Source of the DNA: Aliiglaciecola sp. M165
GTDB taxonomy: Bacteria; Pseudomonadota; Gammaproteobacteria; Enterobacterales; Alteromonadaceae
Direction of reading: 5' to 3'
Length of the DNA stretch: 64,000 bases
Assembly: GCF_007197995.1 (NCBI RefSeq)
Contig: NZ_VKKH01000006.1
Coordinates: forward strand, 372,001 to 436,000
The notes beneath the pieces were generated by a model. It saw only the letters and a program-made list of their open reading frames with translations. It was not told where the DNA came from and did no database searches. Of this stretch, positions 31,716-49,982 are shown piece after piece. Each line of letters begins with the position of its first letter. Positions within the stretch are counted from its first letter, which is position 1. Position numbers and translations under genes: made by a program.

Positions 31716-31719
31716 CTTC

Positions 31720-31826: not shown

Positions 31827-31982
31827 AGGTTGCAAGAGCGATGTATAACTTCAAATAAAAATAAGTACACGACTCAAAAGTGACGCAATAAATAACAAAA
31901 ATAAGCGCACTGAAGTAAACCCGCGAAGACCACTAATAACAATAATAGGTCGGCGGCTTGCATAAATCGTTAGGAGAAAAAA

Positions 31983-32825: not shown

Positions 32826-32910
32826 GTGGAGTTTAACTCATGAAAAATGATGCTGAGCAAGCAAAGGGGCAGGCTGCAACATTGAAGAGTGATTAACAAA
32901 GAAAAGAAAA

Positions 32911-32951
32911 CGGTCGGTATGCAAAATGTGGGGGCAGGCTGCAACCGACCG
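32911..32951 (+). repeat. 8-bp inverted repeat with 25-base loop
   Basis: CGGTCGGT (32911-32918) and ACCGACCG (32944-32951) are perfect reverse complements. The loop carries the second copy of the 15-base GGGGCAGGCTGCAAC repeat. There is no immediate T run, so it is not a typical terminator; it may be a structured 3' UTR or small RNA segment. Confidence 0.45.
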
Positions 32952-33067
32952 AAGAACGACAGTTTTACTATAAGAACTAGCAAAACATTGCTATACATCA
33001 GCGGTGCGAACTCTCGGCTCAGAAAAAAGCCTAGGCTTTTTTAATGGGCAGTCGACTGGCAGAAAAG

Positions 33068-33083
33068 AAGCCAGGAGGTAGTG
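33068..33083 (+). repeat. 16-base direct repeat, copy 2 (flagellin 2 3' region)
   Basis: Exact second copy of AAGCCAGGAGGTAGTG from 31638-31653. It contains an AGGAGG ribosome-binding-like core, but the reading frame after GTG closes after six codons here, so it does not start a conserved peptide. Confidence 0.7.
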
Positions 33084-33316
33084 AGAGGTATTGAGGTTTA
33101 GGCCATCAATTCCGCCCGTCGACCTGAGCTTTCGCTCTTGCTTATTGTATAGCATTTGCCCGCAAAAAGCGTGGCAAACATGCCAGTCAGATAAATGACT
33201 GACACAACAAGTAATGCATCTTGTGTGCCAGTTTGAATATTGACCATGTGAATATCTAGTTCCTATATTAAATATAATTAAATCAATTAGTTATTTTAAT
33301 TGTAGGAGTGTGAGTC

Positions 33317-34144
33317 ATGACGTTATTTGTCAATACAAATACGTCGGCAATAAATGCCCAGCGGCAATTATTTACCGTCAACAACGATCTAAGTACCGCG
33401 TTTGAGCGACTTTCATCAGGTTTTAGAATAAACAGTGCCAAAGATGACGCAGCAGGATTGCAAATATCCAACCGTATGACGTCACAAATCTTAGGGCTTA
33501 ACATGGCGGTTAGAAACGCTAATGATGGTATTTCCTTAGCGCAAACCGCGGAAGGTGCTTTAGCAGAAACTACGGCATCACTGCAACGGATACGTGTTTT
33601 AGCCATTCAATCACAAAACGGAATCAATACCTCTGCTGATCGAGTAGCGCTGCAAAAAGAAGTGTCCGCACTAAAGATAGAAATCAGTCGGATTGCTGCA
33701 ACGTCTCAATTCGGTGGCGTGAATATCCTTGATGGTATCTATTCTTCCAAATTCCTTGTGGGCGCCAATGCTGGCCAGACCATAAGTGTGAACATTTCGC
33801 GTGTTGGTGGGTTTGGTGCATCAGGACTGTTTAACGGCGCAGAAATTTCGGTAGAAACAGAAAGTCAGGCTTCTGCCGTCATGACACGAGTTTCAAACGC
33901 GATTTCTATTATCGACGCTAAACGCGCTGAGTTGGGTGCGGTGCAAAATCGCTTTCAATCAACCATTCGTAATCTCGGCAACATTTCAGAAAATGTGTCA
34001 GCGGCAAGATCGCGTATACGAGATACGGATTTTGCCGTCGAAACGGCAAGTTTAACCCGTAGCCAAATTATTCAACAAGCAACCATAACGGTTTTAAGTC
34101 AGGCAAATCAACGGCCACAATCTGCGTTGCAATTGCTTGGGTAA
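33317..34144 (+). CDS. Flagellin 3 (subtype B)
   Basis: Filament subunit of 275 residues, close to flagellin 2 in the N-terminal half ([33 protein letters not shown]). Core motifs are intact and the C-terminus is the normal SALQLLG. The central segment [23 protein letters not shown] differs from flagellin 2, so surface and glycosylation sites will differ. The start at ATG 33317 follows GTAGGAGTG. No convincing sigma-28 or sigma-54 site was found upstream. Confidence 0.94.
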
Positions 34145-34194
34145 TAATGAAACCCATTCGATAGAGGGTAGGAACTGAGAGGCCAACCCCAGCG

Positions 34195-34212
34195 CTGCAA
34201 ATGGCTTTGCAG
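34195..34212 (+). repeat. 7-bp hairpin downstream of flagellin 3
   Basis: CTGCAAA (34195-34201) and TTTGCAG (34206-34212) close a 4-base loop, 51 bases after the flagellin 3 stop. There is no T run after it. It is part of a structured 3' region that continues with TGGCG-GAAA-CGCCA at 34236-34249. Confidence 0.5.
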
Positions 34213-34233
34213 ACGGCTTACCAAGGAAGGACT

Positions 34234-34287
34234 TGTGGCGGAAACGCCAGAAGAAAAAGCCGACTAACAGGACGGAGAGTGTAGAAG
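34234..34287 (+). other. Relic resembling the flagellin 1 leader
   Basis: A GAAA-containing hairpin (34236-34249) is followed by GGACGGAGAGTGTAGAAG (34270-34287). Flagellin 1's leader has the same arrangement: a CCAGCG-AAA-CGCTGG hairpin, then GGACAGAGAGTGTAGGAG (30766-30783; 16 of 18 bases identical). Here no flagellin gene follows, and a flagellin-type 3' stem-loop and terminator come next. This looks like the remains of a deleted flagellin copy. Confidence 0.4.
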
Positions 34288-34344
34288 TTTGGTTGAGAGG
34301 CCAGTATTCATTCTCTAACCCTGCCAGCCGGACAGAAACAGTAT

Positions 34345-34369
34345 TTGCTCGTACTCCTAACGTGAGCAA
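34345..34369 (+). ncRNA. Stem-loop with anti-Shine-Dalgarno loop, flagellin 3 3' region
   Basis: TTGCTC (34345-34350) pairs with GAGCAA (34364-34369) around a 13-base loop containing CTCCTAACG (34354-34362). The loop core CTCCTAACGT is shared with the stem-loop at 31689-31715, while the outer stem pairs differ in a compensated way (T-A here, C-G there). It is followed at once by the terminator. Confidence 0.4.
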
Positions 34370-34372
34370 GTT

Positions 34373-34400
34373 GGCCAGGTCATTTGATCTGGCCTTTTTT
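34373..34400 (+). terminator. Intrinsic terminator downstream of flagellin 3
   Basis: GGCCAG (34373-34378) pairs with CTGGCC (34389-34394), with additional TCA/TGA pairing inside, followed by six T. Confidence 0.8.
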
Positions 34401-34641
34401 ATTCTTATGCCAGAAAGTTGACGAATGCAACTGCTTTCACGTTGTGTCGAAATAAAAGCAATAGCTGTGCCAAAAACGAATTTATTATTCAATCCAAACC
34501 CATACATTTCTTTCTATCGGCAAGCTGTAAATCTTAAAAAATTCAAAAATCCAAAATTAATTTTTCCTAAAATTTTCTTAATTTGTTAAATGTTAATATA
34601 TTTCAATGGGTTAGGTTAAAATAAAAAAGTGCAAAAAAAAC

Positions 34642-34668
34642 TAAAGAATCTCAAGAGTGTGTCGATAA
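34642..34668 (+). promoter_or_regulatory. Sigma-28-type promoter of flagellin 4
   Basis: TAAAGAAT (34642-34649), exactly 11 bases, GTCGATAA (34661-34668): one mismatch from the -10 consensus. The leader is about 160 bases. The stretch 34401-34640 before it is AT-rich spacer without a gene. Confidence 0.8.
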
Positions 34669-34787
34669 CCTTAGTTGAGGGGAATTCTATCTAAAGAATT
34701 TTGATTTTGACGAAGAGTAGAGGTGCTCTTCTTCAAAAAAAGTGAGGCGACTTTGCGGATGACAGTCCTAGAAGTCGAAATTGAGGC

Positions 34788-34824
34788 GAATCAATCAGCA
34801 AAAATAACCATTTGCGGTTGATTC
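34788..34824 (+). promoter_or_regulatory. Hairpin directly before the flagellin 4 ribosome binding site
   Basis: GAATCAA (34788-34794) pairs with TTGATTC (34818-34824), and inside it GCAAA (34798-34802) pairs with TTTGC (34811-34815). The Shine-Dalgarno CAGGAGGT starts at 34826, one base after the hairpin. This position suits translational control or leader stabilisation of a highly expressed mRNA. Confidence 0.5.
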
Positions 34825-34837
34825 TCAGGAGGTAAAT

Positions 34838-35662
34838 ATGGGTTTATTTGTAAACACCAATGTGTCTTCACTGAATGCTCAACGTCAGTTGGCAAATTCA
34901 GGAACTGCACTTAGTACGTCATTTGAAAGACTGTCGTCTGGTTTTCGTATCAATCGTGCTGCGGATGATGCTGCCGGTCTTCAGATTTCTGACCGTTTAA
35001 CCACTCAGGTTCAAGGTTTGAATCAAGCAGTGCGTAACGCGAATGACGCAATTTCACTTGCACAAACCGCTGAAGGTGCATTGAGTGAGGTTACTAACTC
35101 ACTTCAACGTATTCGTACATTGGCTGTGCAATCACAAAACGGTATCAATACGTCAGCTGACAGAACGGCACTTCAAGCAGAAGTTTCTGCATTGAAAACC
35201 GAGATTTCTCGAATCTCAACCGATTCTCAGTTTGGTGGTGTAGATATATTGACTGGATCGTTCTCGGCTGCATTCCTTGTGGGTGCAAACGGTGGTCAAA
35301 CAATCTCTGTTAATTTGTCTCGTTCAGGCGGTTTCGGAGCTTCTGGACTTAGCATTGGAAGTTTGACTGTTGCAACGGTTGATGGTGCTTCTGCAGCATT
35401 AACAGCGATCACCGCTGCAATCTCTACGATAGGTTCAACAAGAGCCGATTTGGGTGCATTGCAAAACCGTTTCCAATCTACCATTCGTAACTTGAGCAAT
35501 ATTTCAGAAAACATCGCAGGTGCACGTTCACGTATTCGTGATACTGACTTTGCTTCTGAAACAGCTGAATTGACGCGTAACCAGATTGTTCAACAGGCAT
35601 CATTGTCTGTGTTGAGTCAGGCTAACCAGCGTCCTCAAACGGCACTATCTCTACTTGGATAA
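34838..35662 (+). CDS. Flagellin 4 (subtype A)
   Basis: Filament subunit of 274 residues, nearly identical in D0/D1 to flagellin 1 ([48 protein letters not shown]). It differs mainly in the central and outer parts ([16 protein letters not shown]) and ends TALSLLG. It has the best promoter and ribosome binding site of the four genes (CAGGAGGT), suggesting that it is the major filament subunit. A weak stem-loop follows, then flaG. Confidence 0.95.
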
Positions 35663-38698: not shown

Positions 38699-39697
38699 AT
38701 GTTTAAAGACAAAACCGTATTGATTACTGGTGGGACAGGTTCTTTTGGTAAGCGATTTGTTTCTCATTTGTTACAAAATGACACCCCTAGACGCATTATT
38801 ATTTACTCTAGAGATGAGCTAAAACAATTCGAGATGCAGCAAACCTACGATGCGCCGTGTATGAGATACTTTATCGGCGATGTGCGTGACAAACACAGGC
38901 TCAAATCAGCCATGAAAGATGTTGATTTTGTGGTTCATGCAGCCGCTCTAAAACAAGTACCTGCCGCAGAATATAACCCTAACGAGTGTATAAAAACCAA
39001 TATTAATGGTGCGCAAAACGTCATCGATGCAGCTATTGAAACAGATGTTAGACGCGTTATTGCGCTTTCCACTGATAAAGCTGCTAACCCTGTCAATTTA
39101 TACGGTGCAACCAAACTAGCCTCAGACAAATTATTTGTTGCAGCGAATAATATATCTGGAGCTACAGGTCCAAGATTTGCTGTCGTTCGTTACGGCAACG
39201 TAGTCGGCTCTAGGGGTTCCGTTGTGCCTTTTTATCGCAACCTATTAAATGAAGGTAAAGATATTCTGCCAGTCACTCATGCAGAAATGACGCGATTTTG
39301 GATAACGTTAGATGAGGGTGTACAGTTTGTAATCACCAATTTTCAACGTATGCAAGGTGGTGAGATCTTTGTGCCTAAAATTCCATCAATTCGAATTCTT
39401 GATTTGGTTGAATCCATGAGTGGCAAGAAAGACCACGAAATTATTGGGATCCGTCCGGGTGAAAAATTGCATGAAGTTATGGTACCTGAAGAGATGGCTC
39501 ATCATTCTTTAGAGTTTGATGACCACTATGTCATTACACCTGCGATAAAGTTTTTTGACAAAACGGTGGATTACAAAATCAATAAACTTGGTGAACGTGG
39601 TGTGCAAGTTGCTGATAAATTTGAATATCATTCGGGCACTAATCCTCACTTTTTGACAGTAGAAGAGTTGGTCAAACTGGACAAAGAAACGCTATAG
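38699..39697 (+). CDS. pseB: UDP-GlcNAc 4,6-dehydratase (inverting), PseB
   Basis: First step of CMP-pseudaminic acid synthesis: UDP-GlcNAc is dehydrated and C5-inverted to the 4-keto-L-arabino sugar. The 332-residue extended SDR has the NAD motif TGGTGSFG, GDVRDKHRL, and the PseB-specific active-site block STDKAANPVNLYGATK (Asp, Lys and Tyr-xxx-Lys). The C-terminal EFRYRDGFLT-like end is KFEYHSGTNPHFLTVEEL, as in the family. It heads a tightly packed operon with pseC. Confidence 0.95.
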   Translation: MFKDKTVLITGGTGSFGKRFVSHLLQNDTPRRIIIYSRDELKQFEMQQTYDAPCMRYFIGDVRDKHRLKSAMKDVDFVVHAAALKQVPAAEYNPNECIKTNINGAQNVIDAAIETDVRRVIALSTDKAANPVNLYGATKLASDKLFVAANNISGATGPRFAVVRYGNVVGSRGSVVPFYRNLLNEGKDILPVTHAEMTRFWITLDEGVQFVITNFQRMQGGEIFVPKIPSIRILDLVESMSGKKDHEIIGIRPGEKLHEVMVPEEMAHHSLEFDDHYVITPAIKFFDKTVDYKINKLGERGVQVADKFEYHSGTNPHFLTVEELVKLDKETL

Positions 39698-39706: not shown

Positions 39707-40870
39707 ATGCCGAGCAAATTAGATCCAATTCCCTACGGAAAACACCATATAGATCAAGATGATATCGATTCAGTTGTTGATGTTCTGTTGAATCGATTTT
39801 TGACTCAAGGTGACCGTGTCCCTGCATTTGAAAACGCGTTGTGTGAATATACAAAAGCCAAGTTTTCAACGGCTGTTAACAGCGCGACCTCAGGTTTACA
39901 TGTTGCTTGTCTTGCACTGGGAGTCGGCCCTGGAGATATTGTTTGGACAGTTCCGAATTCATTTGTCGCTAGCGCAAACTGTGCGCTTTATTGTGGGGCT
40001 TCAGTTGACTTTGTTGATATTGACCCCGTAACTCGGAACATGAGTGTCGATTTGCTAGCAGAAAAGCTGACAAATGCTGCTCAAAAAGGGGTGTTACCTA
40101 AAGCTATTATTCCCGTTCATTTTTCTGGTTTAAGTTGTCAAATGGATCAGATATCTGCCCTTGCAAAACAGTATGAAGTCAAAATCATCGAAGATGCAGC
40201 ACATGGATTGGGGGGAAGATTCAAAGACACCAAAATTGGTAGTTGTGAGTATTGCGATATCGCGGTGCTGAGTTTTCATCCTGTGAAGTCAATGACAACC
40301 GCCGAAGGTGGCGCGGTGATGACCAATAGCCCGAAGTTAGATGCGAAAATCAAATTGTTCGCTAAACACGGCATAACCAAAGATCCGGCGCAGATGAAGT
40401 CTGAAGTGCATGGGCCCTGGTATTATCAGCAGATAGAGTTGGGTTACAACTACCGGTTAAGTGATTTGCAAGCCGCACTTGGTTTATCTCAGCTAAATAA
40501 ATTAGATGAATTTATTGCCAAGCGAAGGAATTTAGCAGCGCGATACCAACAATTTTTGTCTGATTTACCGTTAACATTGCCCACTATAGACGCGAATTGC
40601 AAAAGTGCTTGGCATTTATACATGCTTGAATTACAAGGGCATGATCGAAAAGAAATTTACGATGCAATGGTTATGCGTGGTATCGGCGTCAATGTTCACT
40701 ATATCCCGATACACCTGCAACCCTACTTTCAAAATCTTGGTTTTTCGACCGGAGATTTTCCAAATTCAGAGAAATTTTATAAAAATGCGTTAACCATCCC
40801 TTTATTTCCAAGCATGACGGCCGATGACCAAGACAGAGTTATACAAGCATTAAATGAGGTACTCGCTTGA
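39707..40870 (+). CDS. pseC: UDP-4-amino-4,6-dideoxy-N-acetyl-beta-L-altrosamine transaminase, PseC
   Basis: PLP-dependent DegT/DnrJ/EryC1-family aminotransferase performing the second step of pseudaminic acid synthesis. The 387-residue protein has the early GKHHIDQDDIDSV motif, the PLP phosphate and Asp region (IIEDAAHGLGG), and the Schiff-base lysine Lys194 in FHPVKSMTTAEGG. GYNYRLSDLQAALGLSQL is typical. The stop overlaps the pseF start by 4 bases. Confidence 0.95.
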   Translation: MPSKLDPIPYGKHHIDQDDIDSVVDVLLNRFLTQGDRVPAFENALCEYTKAKFSTAVNSATSGLHVACLALGVGPGDIVWTVPNSFVASANCALYCGASVDFVDIDPVTRNMSVDLLAEKLTNAAQKGVLPKAIIPVHFSGLSCQMDQISALAKQYEVKIIEDAAHGLGGRFKDTKIGSCEYCDIAVLSFHPVKSMTTAEGGAVMTNSPKLDAKIKLFAKHGITKDPAQMKSEVHGPWYYQQIELGYNYRLSDLQAALGLSQLNKLDEFIAKRRNLAARYQQFLSDLPLTLPTIDANCKSAWHLYMLELQGHDRKEIYDAMVMRGIGVNVHYIPIHLQPYFQNLGFSTGDFPNSEKFYKNALTIPLFPSMTADDQDRVIQALNEVLA

Positions 40871-41568
40871 ATCTGGCCATTATTCCTGCTCGCGGAGGAA
40901 GTAAACGCATACCAGCAAAAAACATTAAAGAATTTGCCGGTAAACCTCTCATCGCCTATTCGATCCAGGCAGCACAAAAGTCGGGACTATTTGAAGAAAT
41001 TTGGGTTTCTACAGATTCTGAACAGGTCGCTGAAATTGCAAAGCAATTTGGGGCCAAAGTGCCTTACATCCGACCTGCTGAATTATCTAACGACTTAATT
41101 GGAACACGACCCGTTACCAGTCATGCCATTAAACATTGCATAGATAATTTAGGGAAACCTGAGTTTTGTTGTTGTATTTATGCCACAGCCCCTTTTTTGC
41201 AGGCAGAATACTTAAAAAAAGGGCTGGAAGTACTCAAGCATGATGCAGAAAAGTCTTTCTCTTTTGCTGTGACGAGTTATGCGTTTCCGATCCAGCGGTC
41301 TATTAGTATTCAGGCTGGAAGAGTCACCCCCATGTTTCCAGAAAATATTTTTAAGCGTTCGCAGGATCTGGAAGAAGCCTATCATGACGCAGGGCAGTTT
41401 TATTGGGGAAAAACCGATGACTACTTGTCCAATAAAGGCATTTTTTCCCAACACAGTGTCCCTGTTGTGTTGCCTAGACATCTGGTGCAGGATATCGACA
41501 CGCCTGAGGATTGGCATCGTGCAGAATTGATGTATCAAGCGTACGTTAGAGGAATGCAAAGTGAATAA
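40867..41568 (+). CDS. pseF: Pseudaminic acid cytidylyltransferase PseF
   Basis: Activates pseudaminic acid with CTP to CMP-Pse, the last step of the pathway. The 233-residue protein has the nucleotide-binding signature IPARGGSKRIPAKNIKEF, with STDSEQVAEIA and DIDTPEDW near the end. TTG start within the pseC stop (TTGA), indicating translational coupling. It is distinct from the second CMP-sugar synthetase at 61543, which has the GLPRKN variant typical of LegF/NeuA. Confidence 0.93.
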   Translation: MNLAIIPARGGSKRIPAKNIKEFAGKPLIAYSIQAAQKSGLFEEIWVSTDSEQVAEIAKQFGAKVPYIRPAELSNDLIGTRPVTSHAIKHCIDNLGKPEFCCCIYATAPFLQAEYLKKGLEVLKHDAEKSFSFAVTSYAFPIQRSISIQAGRVTPMFPENIFKRSQDLEEAYHDAGQFYWGKTDDYLSNKGIFSQHSVPVVLPRHLVQDIDTPEDWHRAELMYQAYVRGMQSE

Positions 41569-42505
41569 CATTCTCATCATTCGTATGCTCGAATTGGGGG
41601 ACATAGCTAGCATAGCAATTCCTGCAATACGACATGTCAGAAAAACCAACCCCAACGCTAACATTACATGTTTAACTCATGGGCAAGGGGGGGAAATACT
41701 TCGCATTGTTGAGCCCGACGTATCCGTTTTGACACTGGAAGATGGTGTTTGGCCAGAAAACATTCTGCAAGCATTAGAAGCCTTTATTGGTGTGGCGGAG
41801 AGGGTCATTGGAACGAAATATGACAGCATAATCAATCTTGATACCGGCTTTATGCCTTGCGTTTTAGCCCGTTTTCTCAAGGATGCAGGGGAACCTGTGG
41901 TGGGCAATTACCTTAGTGTTTCATTGCAAGATTTGTTAACACAAATTCAGAATCAAACACTGCAAGCCGAATATGTGAACCAGTCTCAGCAATACATGCA
42001 AAGCACTTTTAACAATATGTTTAAATGGCATTCTCGATGGTGGGAAAGCGAAAGTCTGTTTGATTATGGCTATCCTGAATACTACTTAAAGAAATGCTGT
42101 GGATGGGGGGATATGGACTACGACCCACACCTACTCAAATCCGAAACAATAGGAGGCGTTAACGATAAGCGCGTGTATCTAGCGATACACGAACATCAGC
42201 ACCCTTATGCACAGATATCAAAATTAACAGAACTATTACGAGAAAACGGGCTTACTGTTGAAATTGATGACGAAAATTCACCCATCGAAACTCGGCTTCA
42301 CCGGATTGCAAATAGCAAATTGGTTGTATGTTTAGCGAATGCTGTTTATGCGTTTGCCGCAGGGGTAGGGGCAAGCACGTTGTTAATTCCGTTGCTAATG
42401 GACCCGCGGATCCTGATGCCAGAATATGCCGCGGATCAAGCGATGGATATTCCCAATGCTGAATCATTAAGTGAAAGCATTTTGTCAGTTTTTGAGAGCG
42501 AATGA
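41561..42505 (+). CDS. GT9-like (heptosyltransferase-fold) glycosyltransferase
   Basis: A 314-residue protein beginning NILIIRMLELGDIASIAIPAIRHVRKTNPNANITCLTHG, the start pattern of ADP-heptose:LPS heptosyltransferases (GT9), with a second Rossmann-like half (RVYLAIHEHQHPYAQISKLTELLRENG, then NSKLVVCLANAVYAFAAGVG). The middle (FKWHSRWWESESLFDYGYPEYYLKKCCGWG) is unusual, with a Cys-Cys pair. It overlaps pseF by 8 bases and precedes pseI, so it belongs to the pse operon. It might transfer a sugar in the flagellin glycan or LPS; the substrate is unknown. Confidence 0.65.
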   Translation: MNNILIIRMLELGDIASIAIPAIRHVRKTNPNANITCLTHGQGGEILRIVEPDVSVLTLEDGVWPENILQALEAFIGVAERVIGTKYDSIINLDTGFMPCVLARFLKDAGEPVVGNYLSVSLQDLLTQIQNQTLQAEYVNQSQQYMQSTFNNMFKWHSRWWESESLFDYGYPEYYLKKCCGWGDMDYDPHLLKSETIGGVNDKRVYLAIHEHQHPYAQISKLTELLRENGLTVEIDDENSPIETRLHRIANSKLVVCLANAVYAFAAGVGASTLLIPLLMDPRILMPEYAADQAMDIPNAESLSESILSVFESE

Positions 42506-42506
42506 C

Positions 42507-43568
42507 ATGAAAGAAATATCCATTGGGAAACGTCTTATAGGTCCAAATCAGCCGCCGTTCATAATTGCTGAACTCAGTGGCAACCATAGCCAAAATTACG
42601 AATTAGCCCTTTCAATGGTCGACGCAGCGGCAAAAGCCGGGGCGCACGCGATAAAACTGCAAACTTACACTGCAGATAGTATGACGCTGGACGTTGATAG
42701 CCCCGATTTTGTTATCCAGGAAAAGGACAGTTTATGGCATGGCGAGTCATTGCATGCGCTTTATGCCAAAGCATCAACACCCTATGAGTGGCATAAACCT
42801 TTATTTGATCATGCCCAGTCTTTAGGCATGCTTGCTTTTAGCAGTCCGTTTGATGAAGACGCAGTGGATTTTTTAGATGAGCTAAATGTCCCTTGCTATA
42901 AAATTGCGTCTTTTGAACTCACTGACATTCCGCTTATTCGCAAAGCTGCCAGCAAAGGCAAACCGTTAATCATGTCAACGGGAATGGCGAGCTTAAGTGA
43001 AATTGAGCTTGCCGTGGCAACAGCAAGATCAGCGGGCTGTGATGATATCATTTTATTGAAGTGCACCAGTACTTACCCAGCCAGTCCTGAAAATACAAAT
43101 CTGTTAACCATTCCTCATTTGCGTGACGCTTTTGGGACCCAAGTAGGACTTTCTGACCATACCAAGGGCATTGGCGTATCGGTTGCATCTGTTACTCTTG
43201 GCGCGACAGTGATTGAAAAGCACTTCGTGCTGGACAGAAATGCCGGAGGTGTGGATGCTGCGTTTTCGCTTGAGCCAAACGAACTTTCAGCGTTAGTCGA
43301 AGAAAGCCGACGGGCGCACCAAGCCTTGGGTGAGGTTTGCTATGGAGGTATGGAGGCGGAACAAAAATCCAAACATTATCGTCGTAGTATTTTTGTAAGC
43401 AAATCCGTTAAAAAAGGAGAGGTTTTAACTGCACAGAACCTCAAAATTGTCCGTCCTGCGAGCGGGTTGCAACCAAAACATTGGGATGATGTCATCGGTC
43501 AGGTCGCCACTCAGGATTTGGTGGCTGGTACACCAATGAATTGGCATCTTTGTGCCCCAGCGACCTAG
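42507..43568 (+). CDS. pseI: Pseudaminic acid synthase PseI
   Basis: Condenses 2,4-diacetamido-2,4,6-trideoxy-L-altrose with phosphoenolpyruvate to pseudaminic acid. ATG at 42507 gives 353 residues. The TIM-barrel NeuB domain carries IIAELSGNHSQNYELAL, KLQTYTADSMTLD, LLKCTSTYPA and VGLSDHTKGIGV. The C-terminal SAF antifreeze-like domain includes RSIFVSKSVKKGEVLTAQNLKIVRP. The GNHSQ and KLQTYTADSMT variants mark the PseI branch rather than NeuB/LegI. Confidence 0.95.
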   Translation: MKEISIGKRLIGPNQPPFIIAELSGNHSQNYELALSMVDAAAKAGAHAIKLQTYTADSMTLDVDSPDFVIQEKDSLWHGESLHALYAKASTPYEWHKPLFDHAQSLGMLAFSSPFDEDAVDFLDELNVPCYKIASFELTDIPLIRKAASKGKPLIMSTGMASLSEIELAVATARSAGCDDIILLKCTSTYPASPENTNLLTIPHLRDAFGTQVGLSDHTKGIGVSVASVTLGATVIEKHFVLDRNAGGVDAAFSLEPNELSALVEESRRAHQALGEVCYGGMEAEQKSKHYRRSIFVSKSVKKGEVLTAQNLKIVRPASGLQPKHWDDVIGQVATQDLVAGTPMNWHLCAPAT

Positions 43569-43578
43569 GGCAAATACC

Positions 43579-44649
43579 TTGAACATTCTTTTTCGAGTCG
43601 ATGCGGGTGAAACCGTTGGTATGGGGCATATTATGCGTTGCCTCGCACTGGCGCAAAGTCTTGAATCTTCCAATGTTCGTACGCATTTTGTGGTCAATTC
43701 CGAAACATTAGCGTTATGCGAACATCGCCAGGACTGGGTCGGGAAATTGTATGCTCTGCCGCTTTTCGATCATATAAACGGCGAGCTGAACTGGCTAAAG
43801 TCGTTTTGTGCCAATCATCCAATAGATGGATTGGTTATTGATGGATACACATTTTCCGAACACTATCGTGAGAATTTTCAAACGTTGAATTTACCCGTCA
43901 TTTGCTTTGATGACATGAACAACTCAGGAAAGTTATTCGCAGACTTGGTCATAAATGGTGCCGAAGAAGCTCATAAACTTAACTACAATGAGACTGCACC
44001 TGAAGCAATATTATGTATAGGGGAGCGATATCGTGTGTTACGCAAAGAGTTTTCAACTTCCCAAAGTAAACCGTTCACAGAACGCACTGAATTAATGGTT
44101 ACCATGGGCGGCAGCGATCCGGCAATGCTCACGTTACCTGTGCTAAAAGCGCTAGAAAAACAAGATTTCACTGGCTCAGTAAACTTGGTAACAGGCGCTG
44201 CAAATAGCGAAGTCGACTCCATTGTAGAATATGTCAAATCTAGCAGACTTAACATAACGCATCACCATGATTGTCAGTCAATGGCTGCATTAATGAAGCA
44301 AAGTCGCCTGGCAATCTCCGCCGCAGGAGGAAGTCAATTTGAACTATTAGCCTGTTCTTGCCCAAGTGTGCTAGTGGTTGTGGCTGACAATCAGCTGAGC
44401 GCAACCCGCACAGCAGAACAACAAGGGTGGTGTAAAACGATTGATATGCGATCTTTTAATCAGGGTTCAGCAGAAGAAAGAACTGAGCGTTTACATGCAA
44501 TACAAAACCTTGTCCAATTGGCAGTTGGTTTGTGGGACCAACATGATAAATTAGTGAAAATGCATCAACACGCATGCGCTTATGCAAACACCCATGGTGC
44601 TGAGCGGGTAGTAGAAAATATTCAGGAGTTACTTTCACGTGGAAACTAG
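43579..44649 (+). CDS. pseG: UDP-sugar hydrolase PseG
   Basis: Removes UDP from UDP-2,4-diacetamido-2,4,6-trideoxy-beta-L-altropyranose, giving the free sugar for PseI. The GT-B fold protein (356 residues from TTG 43579) begins NILFRVDAGETVGMGHIMRCLALAQ, with the conserved GxGHxxR loop and catalytic His, and has LMVTMGGSDPAMLTLPVLKAL and RLAISAAGGSQFELLACSCPS. A GTG at 43552 would add nine residues inside pseI and lacks a ribosome binding site. It overlaps pseH by 11 bases. Confidence 0.92.
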   Translation: MNILFRVDAGETVGMGHIMRCLALAQSLESSNVRTHFVVNSETLALCEHRQDWVGKLYALPLFDHINGELNWLKSFCANHPIDGLVIDGYTFSEHYRENFQTLNLPVICFDDMNNSGKLFADLVINGAEEAHKLNYNETAPEAILCIGERYRVLRKEFSTSQSKPFTERTELMVTMGGSDPAMLTLPVLKALEKQDFTGSVNLVTGAANSEVDSIVEYVKSSRLNITHHHDCQSMAALMKQSRLAISAAGGSQFELLACSCPSVLVVVADNQLSATRTAEQQGWCKTIDMRSFNQGSAEERTERLHAIQNLVQLAVGLWDQHDKLVKMHQHACAYANTHGAERVVENIQELLSRGN

Positions 44650-45208
44650 CCTATCTCAGCGCACTTTGAATGGCTATCAAGTGACTTTAAGGCCCGTGTT
44701 ACACTCTGATCTTGAAACCCTGCGAGCCTGGCGGAATAGCCCAGAAGTCAGCGAGCATATGCTCTCACAATCTACCATTAATCAAGAACAGCAACTTGCA
44801 TGGTTTAAAAAAGTCCAGAGAGATCCGTCTCAAGCTCACTTCATTATCTCGTATCGGGGTGAGGACATTGGCTCATCGAATATTAAATCTCGATTGGCTG
44901 GAGAGACATTGGAACAGGCGCGGGTTATCGAGCCGGGTTTATACATTGCAGATCCACGTTACCGAGGCAATATCCTGGCATTTTCTCCTACATTGCTCAT
45001 CAATGATTTTTGTTTTGAAACCCTTGGCTGTAAAAAGTTGGTCGCTGTAGTGAAATCCACCAATCAAGCTGCGCTTAAGTACAACCAAAAGTTGGGCTAC
45101 AAAGTGGTTAAACAAGGCGAATTGATTGAAATTGAATTGAATTTCGAGGACTATCAACAACATAGTAAAGTTTTGAAACGTTTGCTGTCACGGGAGCGAA
45201 CACGCTAA
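44639..45208 (+). CDS. pseH: UDP-4-amino-sugar N-acetyltransferase PseH
   Basis: GNAT-family enzyme that acetylates the 4-amino group formed by PseC. The 189-residue protein has VTLRPVLHSDLETLRAWRNSPEV, the standard sugar-GNAT start, and the acetyl-CoA region DPRYRGNILAFSPTLLINDFCFETLGCKKLVAVV. GTG start at 44639 with AGGAG upstream. It completes the pseBCFIGH set, so all six enzymes for CMP-pseudaminic acid are present. Confidence 0.88.
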   Translation: METSLSQRTLNGYQVTLRPVLHSDLETLRAWRNSPEVSEHMLSQSTINQEQQLAWFKKVQRDPSQAHFIISYRGEDIGSSNIKSRLAGETLEQARVIEPGLYIADPRYRGNILAFSPTLLINDFCFETLGCKKLVAVVKSTNQAALKYNQKLGYKVVKQGELIEIELNFEDYQQHSKVLKRLLSRERTR

Positions 45209-45228: not shown

Positions 45229-45474
45229 ATGACTAATTTAGAAAAGCTCGTCGATGCATTTTCAACAGGACTTGCGATAGGTCCAGAAAAAGTCGTCGAT
45301 GAATTAGAATACAATACAATCCCAGAATGGGATTCCACTGCTCACATGATCCTAATAGCTGAGTTAGAGGATCAATTTAAAGTCATGTTGGATACTGACG
45401 ATATTATTGATATGAGTTCAGTCGCGAAAGCTAAATCCATTTTAGCGAAATACGATGTCGATTTTAATGCTTGA
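45229..45474 (+). CDS. Acyl carrier protein
   Basis: An 81-residue carrier protein. The phosphopantetheine site is Ser36 in PEWDSTAHM, a dedicated-ACP variant of the DSL motif. The protein is acidic and helical (DQFKVMLDTDDIIDMSSVAKAKSILAKY). It is not the housekeeping AcpP; it starts a five-gene set with a reductase, an AMP-ligase and LuxE/LuxC-like proteins. The next gene starts inside its end. Carrying a short or medium acyl group destined for the flagellin sugar is inference. Confidence 0.9.
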   Translation: MTNLEKLVDAFSTGLAIGPEKVVDELEYNTIPEWDSTAHMILIAELEDQFKVMLDTDDIIDMSSVAKAKSILAKYDVDFNA

Positions 45475-46192
45475 AGATAAACATATATTGATTACGGGTG
45501 CCTCCAGTGGAATTGGTCGTGCAACCGCTATTGAATGCGCCAACCAAGGCGCATTTGTGTATTTAGCGGGGCGCGATAAATCGGCATTGACCGCTACGAA
45601 GCAAATGATTCCGAATAGTTCAATACTTGAATATGATGTGACAGTGGAATCTGAGGTCAAAGCTGCTTTTGCCTGCATCGCCAAATCAGATCATACACTA
45701 GATGGAGTAGTTAATTGTGCTGGGCAAATGCTTGATGCAGGAATTGCCATGACCCGTGTTGAGGATTTTAATCAACAATTGCAAATCAACACTGTATCGA
45801 CGTTTTTACATTGCCAGCTCGCTGCAAGAATGATGACCAGGCAACGCCAAGGTAGCATTGTCAATTTGTGTTCTGCGGTTGGTGAACAAGGCAGTGCCGG
45901 TCAAAGCGCATATGCTGCAAGCAAAGCAGCTGTCTCAGGGCTAACCCTGTCTTTATCAAAGGAGCTTGGAAATTTAGGTATTCGCGTCAATGCAGTGTCA
46001 CCCGGCTTTATCGATACGCCTATGACGGCTGAATATCGAGGCGAGAAAAAACAAAATGTTTTGCAGCATTCTGCTTTGAAAAGGGCAGGAAGCGCCGAAG
46101 AAGTGGCTTCAGTCATCACATTCCTGCTGTCATCTAAAGCAAGTTACATCACCGGACAAATCATCGGTGTAGACGGTGGGTTGAGGGTATAA
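45467..46192 (+). CDS. SDR family oxidoreductase (FabG-like)
   Basis: A classical short-chain dehydrogenase of 241 residues from ATG 45467 (ATG 45455 is also possible). Cofactor motif TGASSGIG and the following LAGRD suggest NADP(H). NCAG, the catalytic Ser region (VNLCSAVGEQGSAG) and YAASK are intact, and it ends with GQIIGVDGGLRV. It overlaps the ACP gene by 8 or 20 bases, so the two are probably co-translated. The pairing suggests a 3-ketoacyl-ACP reductase; a sugar substrate cannot be excluded. Confidence 0.88.
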   Translation: MLEDKHILITGASSGIGRATAIECANQGAFVYLAGRDKSALTATKQMIPNSSILEYDVTVESEVKAAFACIAKSDHTLDGVVNCAGQMLDAGIAMTRVEDFNQQLQINTVSTFLHCQLAARMMTRQRQGSIVNLCSAVGEQGSAGQSAYAASKAAVSGLTLSLSKELGNLGIRVNAVSPGFIDTPMTAEYRGEKKQNVLQHSALKRAGSAEEVASVITFLLSSKASYITGQIIGVDGGLRV

Positions 46193-46195
46193 CCC

Positions 46196-47644
46196 ATGTT
46201 TTTTGAACATCTATCGCGTTTTGGCGAACAAATTGCCGCAATCGAAGGTGGCAACAGTATTAGCTACATTCAATTAGCGGAACGCGTAAATAGTCTCGCA
46301 GATCAAATAATTTCTGAAATAGGGAATACAACCACTGTAATATTACTCAAGGCGAATAATAGTATTTGTACATTGATCGCCTATCTCGCTGTGCTAAAAA
46401 CCAAACATTGTTTAATGTTAGTTTCTCCTCAAATTGCTGAAGAAGAATTAGCATTGATGTGTGAAAAGTTTTCGCCCAGTCTATTAATAGGGGAAGGTTC
46501 CCAACACGCTGCCAACATTGAAAATTTGAGTAAAAAGGGAAAAACGTTAAAAATTGTTCAAGATAGCGACGTAGCAATTTTACTTTCTACCTCAGGTTCT
46601 TCAGGAAACGCTAAATATGTAGCACTAAGCAGAGTAAACGTGCAGGCAAATACTGAATCCATTTGCAGTTATTTACCGATTTTATCCACTGACCGCACGC
46701 TTTGTGCGTTGCCTTTGCATTATTCGTATGGACTATCGGTAGTTAACACCCATATTCAAAAGGGGGCATGTTGCGTATTTACTCAAAGCACGCCAATATC
46801 GAAAGACTATTGGCAAGCACTAGAACAGGGTCATATCAATAGTTTCGCTGGTGTACCCTTTACTTACGAATTAATGCATTCTTTGCGCTTCACTAAAAAA
46901 ATCTTGCCAAACTTACGATATTTTACCCAAGCAGGTGGAAAGCTGAATTCAGAGCTAGTTGAAAGCTACGCAAATTATGCTCATGACAATGACATCGCAT
47001 TTTACGTCATGTATGGTCAAACGGAAGCAACCGCGAGAATGGCTTATCTCGAACCGCAAAAATTGACATTGAAACCTAATGCAATTGGTCAGCCTATACC
47101 AGGCGGAGAATTTAGACTTATTGATGACACCGGTAGGGAAGTGACGGGAACTAATACGCAAGGCGAGTTGACATATAAGGGACAAAACGTGATGTTAGGT
47201 TATGCTTCTAAATTTAAAGACCTACATGGATTATCCCACAATAGCAGCTGGGCAGAACGGTGGCTGGCGACAGGGGATTTAGGTTATGTTGATGAGGAGG
47301 GTGATTATTTCATTACGGGACGGAAATCTCGCTTTATTAAACTTGCTGGCAAACGCATAGATTTGGATGAATGTGAATCCTCCTTAAAAGCACAAGGCGT
47401 TAAATGTTTTTGCACGGGAGACGACAGTCAAATGGTGATCGGGGTCCTGACTGCAGAAGATAAACATGCCGTAAGTTTTGATGGCGATTACGAAAGCAAT
47501 ACTGAAATCACCAAACAGCATTTACACCATAAATATGGCATCCACCCAAGCAAACAAATCATTGTAGAATTGGCAGAACCTCCAATTAATGCAAACGGTA
47601 AAACAGATTATCCAATGCTAAAATCGCTGGCAAAGGCACACTGA
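46196..47644 (+). CDS. AMP-dependent acyl ligase (ANL superfamily)
   Basis: A 482-residue adenylating enzyme that should activate a carboxylic acid with ATP and load it on a thiol, here probably the neighbouring ACP. Motifs: P-loop-like LLSTSGSSGNAK, MYGQTEATARM (A5), TGDLGYVDEEGDYFITGRKSRFIKLAGKRIDLDE (A7-A8), and the catalytic lysine in NANGKTDY near the end (A10). The adenylation pocket residues do not let me name the acid. It starts three bases after the SDR stop and precedes the LuxE-like gene by one base. Confidence 0.88.
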   Translation: MFFEHLSRFGEQIAAIEGGNSISYIQLAERVNSLADQIISEIGNTTTVILLKANNSICTLIAYLAVLKTKHCLMLVSPQIAEEELALMCEKFSPSLLIGEGSQHAANIENLSKKGKTLKIVQDSDVAILLSTSGSSGNAKYVALSRVNVQANTESICSYLPILSTDRTLCALPLHYSYGLSVVNTHIQKGACCVFTQSTPISKDYWQALEQGHINSFAGVPFTYELMHSLRFTKKILPNLRYFTQAGGKLNSELVESYANYAHDNDIAFYVMYGQTEATARMAYLEPQKLTLKPNAIGQPIPGGEFRLIDDTGREVTGTNTQGELTYKGQNVMLGYASKFKDLHGLSHNSSWAERWLATGDLGYVDEEGDYFITGRKSRFIKLAGKRIDLDECESSLKAQGVKCFCTGDDSQMVIGVLTAEDKHAVSFDGDYESNTEITKQHLHHKYGIHPSKQIIVELAEPPINANGKTDYPMLKSLAKAH

Positions 47645-47645
47645 A

Positions 47646-48749
47646 ATGGGTGATATCACACCAACATTGCAGCAGTATCTCAATTTGTTTGAAGAATTAT
47701 TGCAAGCGCCTGTCTACGCCTTGCCGCAAATAGATAAAGAAGCGCAATTAAAACCGATCATTGAGTTATTGCATAACCATCATCAGTTTCATTGCCAAGA
47801 ATACAACAACATTACTCATCAATTTGATGGGCCTGCAAAGGCTCTCGATGACCTGCCATTTCTAGCTGTTCGCTTGTTTAAGCAATTAAAACTTTCAAGT
47901 ATCGCCTCGCATGAAGTATTTAAAGTACTTCAATCCTCTGGCACCACCTCGCAAACGCCGGCGACACTATTTTTAGACCGTGCAACAAGTGCAAGGCAAA
48001 GCAAAGTGTTGGTGAAAATTATGCAGCAAAGCATTGGCAAACAGCGATTGCCGATGTTGATAATAGACAGCCCTGCTGTGTTGGACAAAAAGAATCAATA
48101 CAGTGCTAGAGGGGCAGGTATTCAGGGATTGGCATTTTTTGGGCGAGATTTAACTTACGCACTAGATGAAAATATGCAGCCTAATTGGCCGGTAATTGAA
48201 GCCTTTGTGGAGCGTTATGGAAAGCAGCCTGTATTGATTTTCGGTTTTACCTTCATGGTGTGGTGCTACTTTCTTCAAGGGCTAGTGGAAAGAGGCAAAG
48301 CCTTAAGTTTACCGCAGGGAATATTGTTGCATTCTGGGGGCTGGAAAAAACTCGAAGATCAGAAAGTTGATAATGAGCAATTTAAAAAAACACTCGATAA
48401 TCTGTGTGGTATCTCACAGTGTTACAACTTTTATGGCATGGCAGAGCAGGTGGGTTCAGTATTTGTTGAATGCGAAGACGGCCATTTACATTGCCCTGTT
48501 TTTGCCGACGTGATTACCCGTGATCCCTATTCTTTGAAGATTTGTGGCATTGGTCAGCAGGGCCTTGTTCAATCGATTTCGGCATTACCCACAAGTTACC
48601 CGGGTCATAGTATTTTAACTGAAGACTTAGGCACTATTTTGGGCATTGATGATTGTACTTGTGGCCGCAAAGGCAAATATTTTTCGATACAGGGGCGCTT
48701 ACCTAAGACTGAGATAAGGGGCTGTAGTGATACTCACAATGCAAGTTAA
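47646..48749 (+). CDS. LuxE-type acyl-protein synthetase
   Basis: A 367-residue LuxE/acyl-protein synthetase family protein. In bioluminescent bacteria LuxE activates a fatty acid with ATP and passes it to the reductase LuxC. Visible motifs: KVLQSSGTTSQTPATLFLDR (ATP loop), YNFYGMAEQVGSVFVEC, ILTEDLG, and the C-terminal GRKGKYFSIQGRLPKTEIRGCSDT. It follows the AMP-ligase with no gap and precedes the LuxC-like gene. No luxA, luxB or luxD lies here. Confidence 0.85.
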   Translation: MGDITPTLQQYLNLFEELLQAPVYALPQIDKEAQLKPIIELLHNHHQFHCQEYNNITHQFDGPAKALDDLPFLAVRLFKQLKLSSIASHEVFKVLQSSGTTSQTPATLFLDRATSARQSKVLVKIMQQSIGKQRLPMLIIDSPAVLDKKNQYSARGAGIQGLAFFGRDLTYALDENMQPNWPVIEAFVERYGKQPVLIFGFTFMVWCYFLQGLVERGKALSLPQGILLHSGGWKKLEDQKVDNEQFKKTLDNLCGISQCYNFYGMAEQVGSVFVECEDGHLHCPVFADVITRDPYSLKICGIGQQGLVQSISALPTSYPGHSILTEDLGTILGIDDCTCGRKGKYFSIQGRLPKTEIRGCSDTHNAS

Positions 48750-48788
48750 TCTATTAACTCATCTGAGCAGCTCTGGAGAGTTTCAAAG

Positions 48789-49982
48789 GTGATCAGCTTA
48801 GCTCCCAGAATAACAGGACAAGGCCTGTCTATTGAAAGTTGGTTTACTCGTGGCGTTGAGCCTTTGTCTCCAATGAATGATGATAATCTAGCGTTCCTAG
48901 AGGCTTTATCAAACGATTTAATGAAGAGCCCAAGCGCCAAAATACATCCAGAGTTAGTGGCATTAGGATTTTGGTTGCGTAAACGAAATATTCAAAATAT
49001 GTTTGAATCTACGTTGCGCCAAACTTCCAAAGTGATGCATAAACCTCTAGGCACAGTCGTGCATTTTACGCCTGCAAACGTGGACACCATGTTTGTTTAT
49101 AGTTGGGTATGTTCATTGCTGTGCGGAAATAACAATATTGTGCGTGTTGCAACGGCACAAAGTGACATCAAAGATGTGTTGTTAAATACCCTTGATCGTC
49201 TGTTTCAAATCCCACAATTCTCAGTGGTGGCGAAGCGAAATTGGTTTATAAGTTACGATAAATCATCAGGTCTCAGCGGGCAATTGTCGTCATTTGCCGA
49301 TGCTCGGGTGATTTGGGGAGGGGATGAAAGTGTAAATAGTATTCGGGCGCTCCCTTGTAAACCTAGGTGCAGAGATATAAGTTTCGCTGATCGTTTTTCA
49401 GCAACAATTTTGGATTTGCGTCAAGTTGACGAAAGCCAGAGTTTAGAAGACTTAGCACAGCGGTTGTGGCGCGATACTGTCCCCTATGAGCAACAAGCTT
49501 GCAGTTCACCTCGTTTAGTTTATTTTCTTGGTGATACACCTGTTTTGCTTAGCGTATTGGCACGTCTAAACGAACTTGCATCTCAGACAGAAATATCCAT
49601 TACCCAGAAAAATAATCAATTGGTTACTATGCAACTGGCACAAAGCACAGATGCGGACTGTGAGATCCTAATGCAAGATCGTGTTTGTGCGATTAGTGTA
49701 TCAGGCATAACTGAAACTATGCTTGGATGGCATAACGGAGAAAAGGTTTTTTATGTGCGCCATTTGGACGAACCCGAAGCAATGTTCACCGACTCTTTAG
49801 ACAAGTTACAGACCTTGAGCTACTTGGGGCTTAGTGAACACGACAAGTTAAAGGTTTTAAGTCATCCGTCGATATCAGGAATAGATAGAATTGTGCCTGT
49901 TGGTCAGGCATTGGACTTTACACCGGTTTGGGATGGTTTTGATTTGGTAGGACAGTTATGCAGAAAAGTATCAATATTCTAG
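48789..49982 (+). CDS. LuxC-type acyl reductase
   Basis: A 397-residue LuxC family acyl-CoA/acyl-protein reductase, which reduces activated acyl groups to aldehydes with NADPH. LGTVVHFTPANVDTMFVYSW is the typical nucleotide-binding start. The likely acyl-accepting Cys238 sits in YEQQACSSPRLVYF, as in LuxC. The GTG start at 48789 has a poor ribosome binding site, and no better in-frame start is visible. With the adjacent LuxE-like gene it would form an acid-to-aldehyde pair, here set between pseudaminic acid genes and a TagD/LicD module. Confidence 0.85.
   Translation: MISLAPRITGQGLSIESWFTRGVEPLSPMNDDNLAFLEALSNDLMKSPSAKIHPELVALGFWLRKRNIQNMFESTLRQTSKVMHKPLGTVVHFTPANVDTMFVYSWVCSLLCGNNNIVRVATAQSDIKDVLLNTLDRLFQIPQFSVVAKRNWFISYDKSSGLSGQLSSFADARVIWGGDESVNSIRALPCKPRCRDISFADRFSATILDLRQVDESQSLEDLAQRLWRDTVPYEQQACSSPRLVYFLGDTPVLLSVLARLNELASQTEISITQKNNQLVTMQLAQSTDADCEILMQDRVCAISVSGITETMLGWHNGEKVFYVRHLDEPEAMFTDSLDKLQTLSYLGLSEHDKLKVLSHPSISGIDRIVPVGQALDFTPVWDGFDLVGQLCRKVSIF

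Follow-up and report, generated by a model that had tools for sequence, protein, structure and literature searches.

What do genes of the LuxE and LuxC families do inside a flagellin sugar locus? This question is raised by a stretch of 64,000 nucleotides from Aliiglaciecola sp. M165 (hereafter, the window). The answer that we consider somewhat probable is that a five-gene cassette, comprising an acyl carrier protein (ACP), an SDR reductase, an ANL ligase, LuxE and LuxC, builds a short hydroxyacyl group on its dedicated ACP, and that a module-specific PseH puts this group on an amino group of the pseudaminic acid (Pse) precursor.

Organization of the locus

The first-pass annotation had described the five genes as tightly packed directly after pseH, and we recovered all of them in that arrangement (Table 1). 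They are intact and operon-like: the ACP gene begins 20 bases after pseH, and the successive gaps from ACP through SDR, ANL and LuxE to LuxC are −20, 3, 1 and 39 bases. A LicD-family gene at 50018 and then other transferase and cytidylyltransferase genes lie downstream of the module. A PF01973 (Maf-type) protein is encoded about 4.5 kb past the end of the window.

Table 1. Flagellin, pse and module genes of the window.
Feature	Coordinates	Strand	Basis
Four flagellin genes (named from sequence), presumed sugar acceptors	30791..35662	+	
PseB	38699..39697	+	Polysacc_synt_2 340 bits (Pfam) and gene order
PseC	39707..40870	+	TIGR03588 536 bits, over NCBIfam cut-off
PseF	40867..41568	+	CTP_transf_3 108 bits (Pfam) and gene order
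PseI	42471..43568	+	TIGR03586 501 bits, over NCBIfam cut-off
PseG	43552..44649	+	TIGR03590 239 bits, over NCBIfam cut-off
PseH-type GNAT, LuxC/E-linked clade, proposed module acyltransferase	44639..45208	+	TIGR03585 73.7 bits, below cut-off; trees; structure model
ACP, dedicated, 81 aa, WDS motif	45229..45474	+	WDS motif; weak alignment with solved ACPs
SDR reductase, FabG-like	45455..46192	+	adh_short_C2 206 bits; motifs TGASSGIG, YxxxK
ANL (AMP-forming) ligase	46196..47644	+	AMP-binding 167 bits; motifs STSGSSG, NGK
LuxE-family acyl-protein synthetase, Cys360 conserved	47646..48749	+	PF04443 168 bits
LuxC-family acyl reductase, Cys238 conserved, GTG start	48789..49982	+	PF05893 98 bits

Family scores and acyl cysteines together place the LuxE and LuxC proteins in the PF04443 and PF05893 superfamilies. 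The Cys238 that had been noted in LuxC was confirmed: it lies within QQACSSP, aligns with LuxC of the lux operon structure 7xc6 and is invariant across the 18 sequences of the LuxC alignment. Likewise, Cys360 of LuxE lies within RGCSDT, aligns with LuxE of 7xc6 and is invariant across 18 aligned LuxE sequences. The window ACP matched no Pfam or NCBIfam model at E 0.001, and its best alignment to solved ACPs was weak (E 0.014); its Ser36 lies in the WDS motif, which was present in all 128 module ACPs checked (those under 110 aa). The SDR scored best against FabG models, yet below their cut-offs. The genome also holds a second, weak PF05893 match (26 bits).

The module is not a luminescence system

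A search of the whole genome for luciferase-family (PF00296) proteins gave no match, and the control matched in 10 of 14. Two matches to the LuxD family PF02273 occur in the genome (23.1 and 22.5 bits; cut-off 20.3); both are partial, covering about 70 of 294 positions, and lie outside the window. In 171 neighbourhoods, a LuxD query gave no hit at E under 0.1. The earlier statement that the locus holds neither luxAB nor luxD thus stands. Against the NCBIfam long-chain models, LuxC reached 36 bits (cut-off 750) and LuxE 56 bits (cut-off 550). Because PF00296 is absent from the genome and both proteins fall far below the long-chain cut-offs, we conclude that the module does not serve luminescence. 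The window pair is homologous to LuxC-LuxE of 7xc6 and shares both acyl cysteines, but the window set adds an ACP, an ANL ligase and an SDR, belongs to a separate clade and lies in a genome without luciferase.

The substrates of luminous LuxC and LuxE are long chains. This activity and the family names favor a long-chain fatty acyl or aldehyde modification, proposed in published descriptions as a "liposugar" (PMC4875605) or a "fatty aldehyde" (PMC7874193, in the part available); however, the low long-chain scores and the separate clades make this very improbable, and the flagellin literature examined gives no mass of long-chain size.

The five-gene set itself had been thought little described, a view that must be abandoned. 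The available part of PMC7874193 reports the same five families (orf1-3, luxE, luxC), in identical order directly after pseH, in the flagellin islands of Aeromonas group II (98 strains), and PMC4875605 reports similar sets (acp, fabG, caiC, luxE, luxC) in flagellin islands of Enterobacteriaceae (71–80 strains, depending on the gene). As far as these sources were available, both read the genes as fatty-acid genes; the available part of PMC7874193 has the module channelling fatty acids to aldehyde and describes no mutant in a module gene. The settings differ from ours: luxC is followed in Aeromonas group II by the GT2 gene fgi-1 (available part of PMC7874193) and in the window by LicD-family and cytidylyltransferase genes, while DegT-type aminotransferases are common in the enterobacterial islands and PseC occurs in only 2 strains (PMC4875605), whereas the window has PseC.

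Most complete modules travel with a sugar N-acyltransferase

A census of complete modules counted 135 distinct ones: PseI or a PseH-like GNAT lies nearby in 105, a PglD-like sugar acyltransferase in the absence of PseI and PseH in 14 more, and none of the three in 16; in 8 of these 16 the gene before the ACP was classified by Pfam, and 2 of the 8 were GNATs. Immediately 5′ of the ACP gene stands pseH in 85 modules and PglD in 6. The SDR is missing from 10 of the 135 loci. These counts bear out the suggested association with flagellar nonulosonate genes; neither they nor the lack of PF00296 proteins in this genome nor the neighbourhoods without a LuxD hit refute it.

The acyltransferase fold is thus swapped while the module is kept, which points to an N-acyl donor, and we consider an N-acyl role of the module likely. 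The first-pass annotation had proposed that the module modifies an amino group by acylation or by reductive alkylation; acylation agrees with these results, but alkylation by a free aldehyde does not, as the partners are an ACP and, mostly, a sugar N-acyltransferase. We give very little credence to such an alkylation, or to condensation of the LuxC aldehyde by a thiamine enzyme, even though transketolase-type or acetolactate-synthase-like genes adjoin the module in L038, L236, L042, L069 and L289, a Rhizobium plasmid, since these are few loci and the window is not among them.

A PseH clade linked to the module

The window PseH scored 73.7 bits against TIGR03585, under the cut-off of 93.1, which leaves it outside the PseH equivalog. 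In a quick tree, made like all our trees without bootstraps and with long-branch warnings, 77 LuxC/E-linked PseHs formed one side of a branch and 44 PseHs from LuxC-negative loci the other, so that linkage changed once on the tree (SH-aLRT 99). The 44 comprise 30 high scorers from the top of a score-ranked list and 14 from 20 further loci on it, of which five without PseI and one repeated row were dropped. L149, with a LuxC-like protein of 56 bits, no LuxE and an over-cut-off PseH, was left out by hand, and the PseHs of named genomes stand outside this tree. L276 and L280, which are LuxC-negative and have no pse genes, were omitted because they lack PseI; of the two PseH profiles, the one built on module PseHs is the nearer to their GNATs. 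An over-cut-off PseH was found in 42 family genomes, 37 of them LuxC-negative; in one of the remaining five (G908) this copy lies apart from the module. The module-linked PseHs of G900, G921 and G923 exceed the cut-off, at 93.5–98.7 bits.

The structure model of the window PseH (pLDDT 96) has HpPseH as its best match by E-value, whereas the highest query TM-score among the 50 matches listed, 0.79, belongs to FdhC (rank 17 by E), whose structure contains CoA together with a 3-hydroxybutanoylamino sugar. A GxG CoA loop occurs in 1 of the 77 LuxC/E-linked PseHs, compared with 30/30 high-scoring and 7/14 other LuxC-negative ones; because the 77 are one clade, this loss counts once. An ACP-like ORF also lies near PseH in 11 of 15 LuxC-negative pse loci. 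We considered loop loss as a switch from CoA to ACP as donor and dropped this idea, since loop-bearing LuxC-negative loci have ACP-like ORFs too. As such ORFs are frequent there and FdhC itself uses CoA, the divergence of PseH does not indicate ACP or CoA use. By eye, the module GNATs of Bacillota also lack the R/QxxGxG form.

A proposed kinship with the tetronate pathway of Vibrio cholerae

The tetronate set of V. cholerae (VC0248–VC0252, rfbK-O/wbe) presumably includes an ACP, and we take its iron alcohol dehydrogenase to be RfbM, its fused LuxE-LuxC protein RfbN and its hexapeptide acyltransferase RfbO. The locus L043, in which ACP, ANL, Fe-ADH and a LuxE-LuxC fusion lie inside a legionaminate locus, has what we assume to be the same layout. 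The window LuxE scored 199 bits to the L043 fusion and 51 bits to LuxE of 7xc6. LuxE and LuxC trees covered the window, 29 of 148 loci chosen by hand, two modules from plasmids and seven outsiders; in both, sugar-module and luminous proteins fall in separate clades. The L043 fusion branches next to 32 sugar-module LuxEs in the LuxE tree; in the LuxC tree, its RfbN-type LuxC half joins the luminous proteins and not the sugar clade, which counts against our reading. The Fe-ADH in the SDR slot of L043 suggests an aldehyde-to-alcohol step, and natural fusions of ANL with LuxE (L053) and of LuxE with LuxC (L137, judged by frame length) tie these steps together. A Lactiplantibacillus plasmid has the arrangement LuxE-LuxC-SDR.

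In V. cholerae O1, according to the available parts of PMC3441752, PMC4772473 and PMC6562859, the ANL-type WbeL and the LuxE-domain protein RfbN serve (S)-2,4-dihydroxybutyryl on a 4-amino sugar. We read the window module, by analogy, as a variant of this pathway. The ANL ligase and, presumably, the ACP are common to both; however, LuxE and LuxC are two unfused genes in the window, an SDR takes the place of the iron alcohol dehydrogenase, the GNAT PseH replaces the hexapeptide acyltransferase (PglD-like in some relatives), and the sugar is Pse rather than GDP-perosamine.

In the mechanism that we favor, LuxE would activate a small diacid at one of its carboxylates and hand the activated group through the C-terminal cysteine of LuxE to LuxC, which would reduce it to a semialdehyde. 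The SDR would then form the alcohol, the ANL ligase would load the remaining carboxylate onto the ACP, and PseH would transfer the hydroxyacyl group to the UDP-altrosamine precursor, at its 4-amino group. Flagellin would thereby carry N-hydroxyacyl Pse in place of the plain diacetyl form. The acyl group is most likely dihydroxybutyryl, probably (S)-2,4-dihydroxybutyryl from L-malate by analogy with O1 perosamine; malate as the substrate is a guess from chemistry.

The module may instead keep its donor role with a different acyl group (3-hydroxybutyryl, 4-hydroxybutyryl or another hydroxyacyl) and the SDR may act as a 3-ketoacyl-ACP reductase. This would fit the FabG-like scores of the SDR and the likeness to FdhC, which transfers 3-hydroxybutanoyl, as well as the F. 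psychrophilum wfp R-group genes, whose PglD homologue is predicted (PMC6519341, available part) to take 3,5-dihydroxyhexanoyl from an ACP onto a 4-amino sugar. The wfp genes use ketosynthases, however, and the available text of PMC6519341 contains neither "LuxE" nor "acyl-CoA reductase"; the window module has no ketosynthase, and the constant company of LuxE and LuxC would be left unexplained. We therefore regard a different acyl group as rather unlikely.

Masses of Aeromonas flagellin glycans

Aeromonas piscicola AH-3 has the module in its island, and the available part of its published description lists a Pse derivative of 376.14 Da along with an unexplained 102 Da moiety. Dihydroxybutyryl would account for both. 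Mono-acetyl Pse with C4H6O3 (dihydroxybutyryl, 102.03 Da) has a calculated mass of 376.148, although 23 CHNO formulas, many of them absurd, come within 0.06 Da of this mass difference, in one strain measured at low precision. The AH-3 heptasaccharide with C4H6O3 is calculated at 1491.49, against 1491.5 reported. In contrast, 3-hydroxybutyryl-Pse would have a mass of 360.15, a further point against that acyl group.

The 102 Da unit, which the available account places apart from Pse, also raises the idea that the acyl group sits on another flagellar glycan sugar, or acts as a cap. The LicD-family and other transferase genes after the window module and the modules without pse genes would suit this idea, but the AH-3 fgi-1 mutant, in that account, loses the 102 Da unit while Pse remains at 376, and the PseH clade tracks the module; we judge it improbable. 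Dihydroxybutyryl on Pse remains our preferred assignment.

More broadly, and tentatively, the module may be a pan-bacterial sugar-decoration cassette in which LuxE and LuxC act as a small-diacid reductase, converting malate to (S)-2,4-dihydroxybutyryl-ACP. PseHs of the dedicated clade would pass this group to Pse, and PglD-like enzymes would pass it to legionaminic acid or to sugars of the bacillosamine type. We find this possibility somewhat doubtful; if it is true, luminescence would be an offshoot of a pair of enzymes that bacteria use widely in making glycans. Our preferred reading, if correct, would itself give LuxC and LuxE a role in non-glowing bacteria and lend a chemical identity to a gene set labelled fatty-acid or luminescence in many genomes; the two unassigned Aeromonas masses would be explained, and the N-acyl group of Pse would become more predictable from genome sequence.

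The main texts of Geobacillus and Clostridium flagellin papers contain neither "LuxE" nor "LuxC". The S. oneidensis genes sfmABCDE were considered as the same module and rejected, being described in the available part of PMC3765264 as NeuB, a TPP enzyme, an SDR, a methyltransferase and an ATP-grasp protein; the mono-acetyl nonulosonate ion given there, 275.1238, is a useful reference.

Gene content of the module

The first-pass annotation had described five tightly packed genes, for an acyl carrier protein (ACP), an SDR reductase, an ANL ligase and members of the LuxE and LuxC families, directly after pseH, and the coordinates, gaps and Pfam scores bear this out. The module begins 20 bases past pseH, and its genes are spaced by -20, 3, 1 and 39 bases. 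The ACP shows weak kinship with solved ACPs. Cys238 of LuxC and Cys360 of LuxE each align with their counterpart in 7xc6, the solved LuxC-LuxE complex of the lux fatty-acid reductase, and both were invariant in alignments of 18 sequences each. The ANL motifs STSGSSG and NGK and the SDR motifs TGASSGIG and YxxxK are also kept and, judged from these sequences, the catalytic features of the module enzymes are intact.

Genes of the module and other features of the window
Feature	Position	Strand	Description
ACP	45229-45474	+	WDS motif, no family match
SDR	45455-46192	+	Pfam adh_short_C2, 206 bits
ANL	46196-47644	+	Pfam AMP-binding, 167 bits
LuxE	47646-48749	+	Pfam LuxE, 168 bits
LuxC	48789-49982	+	Pfam LuxC, 98 bits
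ORF ahead of flagellins	29595-30530	-	No Pfam match; SDNGKSW resembles sialidase Asp box (by eye)
ORF between pseF and pseI	41561-42505		No Pfam match
LicD, cytidylyltransferase, LicD	50018-52469		Immediately 3' of module
Second nonulosonate pathway, legionaminate type	57553-64000		NeuC-like, PIG-L deacetylase, NeuB-type synthase, Gfo-like, cytidylyltransferase, SDR, PtmE-like (names partly from sequence)

Upstream of the module lie pseB, C, F, I, G and H, as well as flagellin, fliD and fliS genes (names from sequence), and a PF01973 (Maf-type) protein is encoded about 4.5 kb past the window end. The AlphaFold model of the ORF between pseF and pseI (pLDDT 89.5) resembles GT9 heptosyltransferases such as WaaC, and this ORF recurs in pse loci of Alteromonadaceae. 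The LicD run, which recurs in relatives, suggests that an alcohol phosphate is added to the glycan.

Association with sugar N-acyltransferases

A LuxC relative was present in 39 of the 295 genomes sampled from the order, in 67 of 295 from the family and in 5 of 369 from the class, counts that include the window's own genome and genomes shared between samples. We compared 171 neighbourhoods: 91 representing all of these matches except six weak or fragment ones, and the 80 best among the 188 relatives confirmed in named genomes. Removal of 17 duplicates and of 6 neighbourhoods without a LuxC of 100 bits left 148 loci. ACP, ANL, LuxE and LuxC were all present in 135 of these, with the SDR in 125 and without it in 10; the other 13 were incomplete, some at contig ends. 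The linkage to pse genes noted in the first-pass annotation is strongly supported, as 105 of the 135 complete modules have PseI or a PseH-like GNAT. Fourteen more, with neither of these, have a PglD-like hexapeptide transferase, indicating that the usual partner is a sugar N-acyltransferase of either fold. The remaining 16 have none of the three; in 8 of them the gene before ACP was compared with Pfam and proved to be a GNAT in two cases and not in six.

The hosts include Alteromonas, Marinobacter, Bacillus, Lysinibacillus, Paenibacillus, Cupriavidus, Stenotrophomonas, Rheinheimera and Pseudovibrio, together with MAGs of several phyla. In Rheinheimera, PglD lies immediately 5' of ACP and a DegT aminotransferase is in the cluster. 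The set also occurs on Deinococcus and Rhizobium plasmids, near a gene annotated as an acetyl- or acyltransferase. Maf lies inside the module at L061, L143, L198, L199 and L202 (Pfam-confirmed in L061 and L143). Transketolase-type pairs or acetolactate-synthase-like enzymes adjoin the module at further loci (L038, L236, L289; L042, L069).

The gene set is already described. The association with Aeromonas flagellar islands mentioned in the first-pass annotation is correct, and it holds for the full set: in the group II islands of 98 strains, pseH is followed by genes for an ACP, a 3-oxoacyl-ACP reductase and an AMP synthetase and then by luxE and luxC, which have been interpreted together as a route from fatty acids to aldehyde (PMC7874193). 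Another study describes flagellin islands with acp, luxE, luxC, caiC and fabG in 71 to 80 strains, depending on the gene, and proposes a liposugar (PMC4875605). The earlier view of the set as little described was thus mistaken. A full-text literature search, mostly outside subscription papers and with sources partly accessible, returned neither a product for the set nor a tie to tetronate genes.

Luminescence and long-chain substrates

No PF00296 protein was found in the whole genome (a positive control matched in 10 of 14 genomes). PF02273 (LuxD) gave two partial matches, barely above the cut-off and both outside the window, and a LuxD query against the 171 neighbourhoods returned nothing at E < 0.1. 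Against the long-chain models, LuxE scored 56 (cut-off 550) and LuxC 36 (cut-off 750). Quick trees of 39 rows each included 32 hand-picked sugar-module sequences. The 32 LuxEs formed one clade (SH-aLRT 95), adjoined by the fusion protein of locus L043 (98), with a luminous LuxE outside; the 32 LuxCs likewise grouped together (100), separated from both the luminous and the RfbN-type LuxC. The lack of a PF00296 protein in the genome, the low model scores and the separate clades indicate that the module does not serve luminescence, and the scores and clades likewise make a long-chain acyl role unlikely.

The PseH lineage of the module

The window PseH scored 73.7 bits against the PseH model TIGR03585 (cut-off 93.1). 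A PseH above the cut-off occurs in 42 of 295 family genomes, 37 of them without LuxC. In the other five, the gene lies apart from the module (G908), is module-linked and barely above the cut-off (G900, G921, G923) or belongs to a genome with a variant locus, L149 (G695). In a PseH tree of 121 rows, 77 LuxC/E-linked sequences fell on one side of a branch (99) and 44 from LuxC-negative loci on the other. The best match by E-value to the window PseH model (pLDDT 96) was H. pylori PseH, and the highest query TM-score among the 50 rows listed (0.79, rank 17) was that of FdhC, whose solved structure contains CoA together with a 3-hydroxybutanoylamino sugar. The separate tree side and the likeness to FdhC suggest that the PseH of the module belongs to a lineage of its own, and that its fold is one for which transfer of C4 hydroxyacyls is known.

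By a loose ORF pattern, an ACP-like ORF lies by PseH in 11 of 15 LuxC-negative pse loci of the family (L266, L268-L271, L273-L275, L281, L282, L285), 8 of which also have ANL and SDR matches. Pse acyl diversity thus extends beyond this module, and how far a PseH has diverged is not enough to identify its donor. These LuxC-negative loci may hold another type of acyl module that works with PseH. The GNATs of L276 and L280, LuxC-negative loci without pse genes, are closer to the module-PseH profile and were left out of the tree.

Likeness to tetronate synthesis and proposed function

L043, a legionaminate locus, encodes an ACP, an ANL ligase, an iron alcohol dehydrogenase and an 825-aa LuxE-LuxC fusion, the combination that also makes up the tetronate genes of V. 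cholerae O1. The window LuxE is nearer to this RfbN-type fusion (199 bits) than to the LuxE of 7xc6 (51 bits), although the LuxC half of the RfbN-type protein falls outside the sugar-module group in the LuxC tree. Published work attributes VC0248-VC0252 to the synthesis of tetronate (PMC3441752) and reports that the tetronate protein RfbN contains a LuxE domain (PMC4772473) and that the tetronate group is (S)-2,4-dihydroxybutyryl carried by a 4-amino sugar (PMC6562859).

The alcohol dehydrogenase in the SDR slot of L043, together with a small plasmid of Lactiplantibacillus (L291) on which LuxE, LuxC and SDR genes follow one another, suggests conversion of an acid to an aldehyde and then to an alcohol. 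No sugar genes are annotated beside these three on the plasmid. Fusion of ANL and LuxE in one 877-aa ORF (Pfam) at L053, and LuxE and LuxC matches within one frame of 758 aa at L137, indicate that the steps are tied together; at L122, LuxE lies within a 935-aa ORF. The presence of a second acid activator beside LuxE is best explained by a dicarboxylic substrate. LuxE would take one carboxylate and ANL the other, and L-malate as substrate would give (S)-2,4-dihydroxybutyrate directly. It is likely in outline that the module provides a hydroxyacyl donor, probably dihydroxybutyryl, an assignment not found in the literature searched. Points that weigh against this reading are the 10 complete modules that have no SDR, the 16 that have no recognised transferase, the ACP-like ORFs and the L276 and L280 GNATs of LuxC-negative loci, and the position of the RfbN-type LuxC half.

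Flagellin glycan masses

In A. piscicola AH-3, whose island has the module, the polar flagellin carries a 376.14 Da Pse derivative and a 102 Da moiety, and in a deletion mutant of the GT2 gene fgi-1 the 376 Da unit stays but the chain beyond it is lost (PMC7874193). Mono-acetyl Pse (274.116) plus C4H6O3 (102.032) gives a calculated 376.148, a match from one strain at two decimals, with 23 CHNO formulas falling within 0.06 Da. An isobaric acyl or acyl pair, such as O-methylglyceryl or formyl plus C5H8O3, is possible instead of dihydroxybutyryl. The whole AH-3 glycan with C4H6O3 is calculated at 1491.49, vs the reported 1491.5. For AH-1, expected from the published island grouping to be without the module, the mass is 403 Da (PMC4691044).
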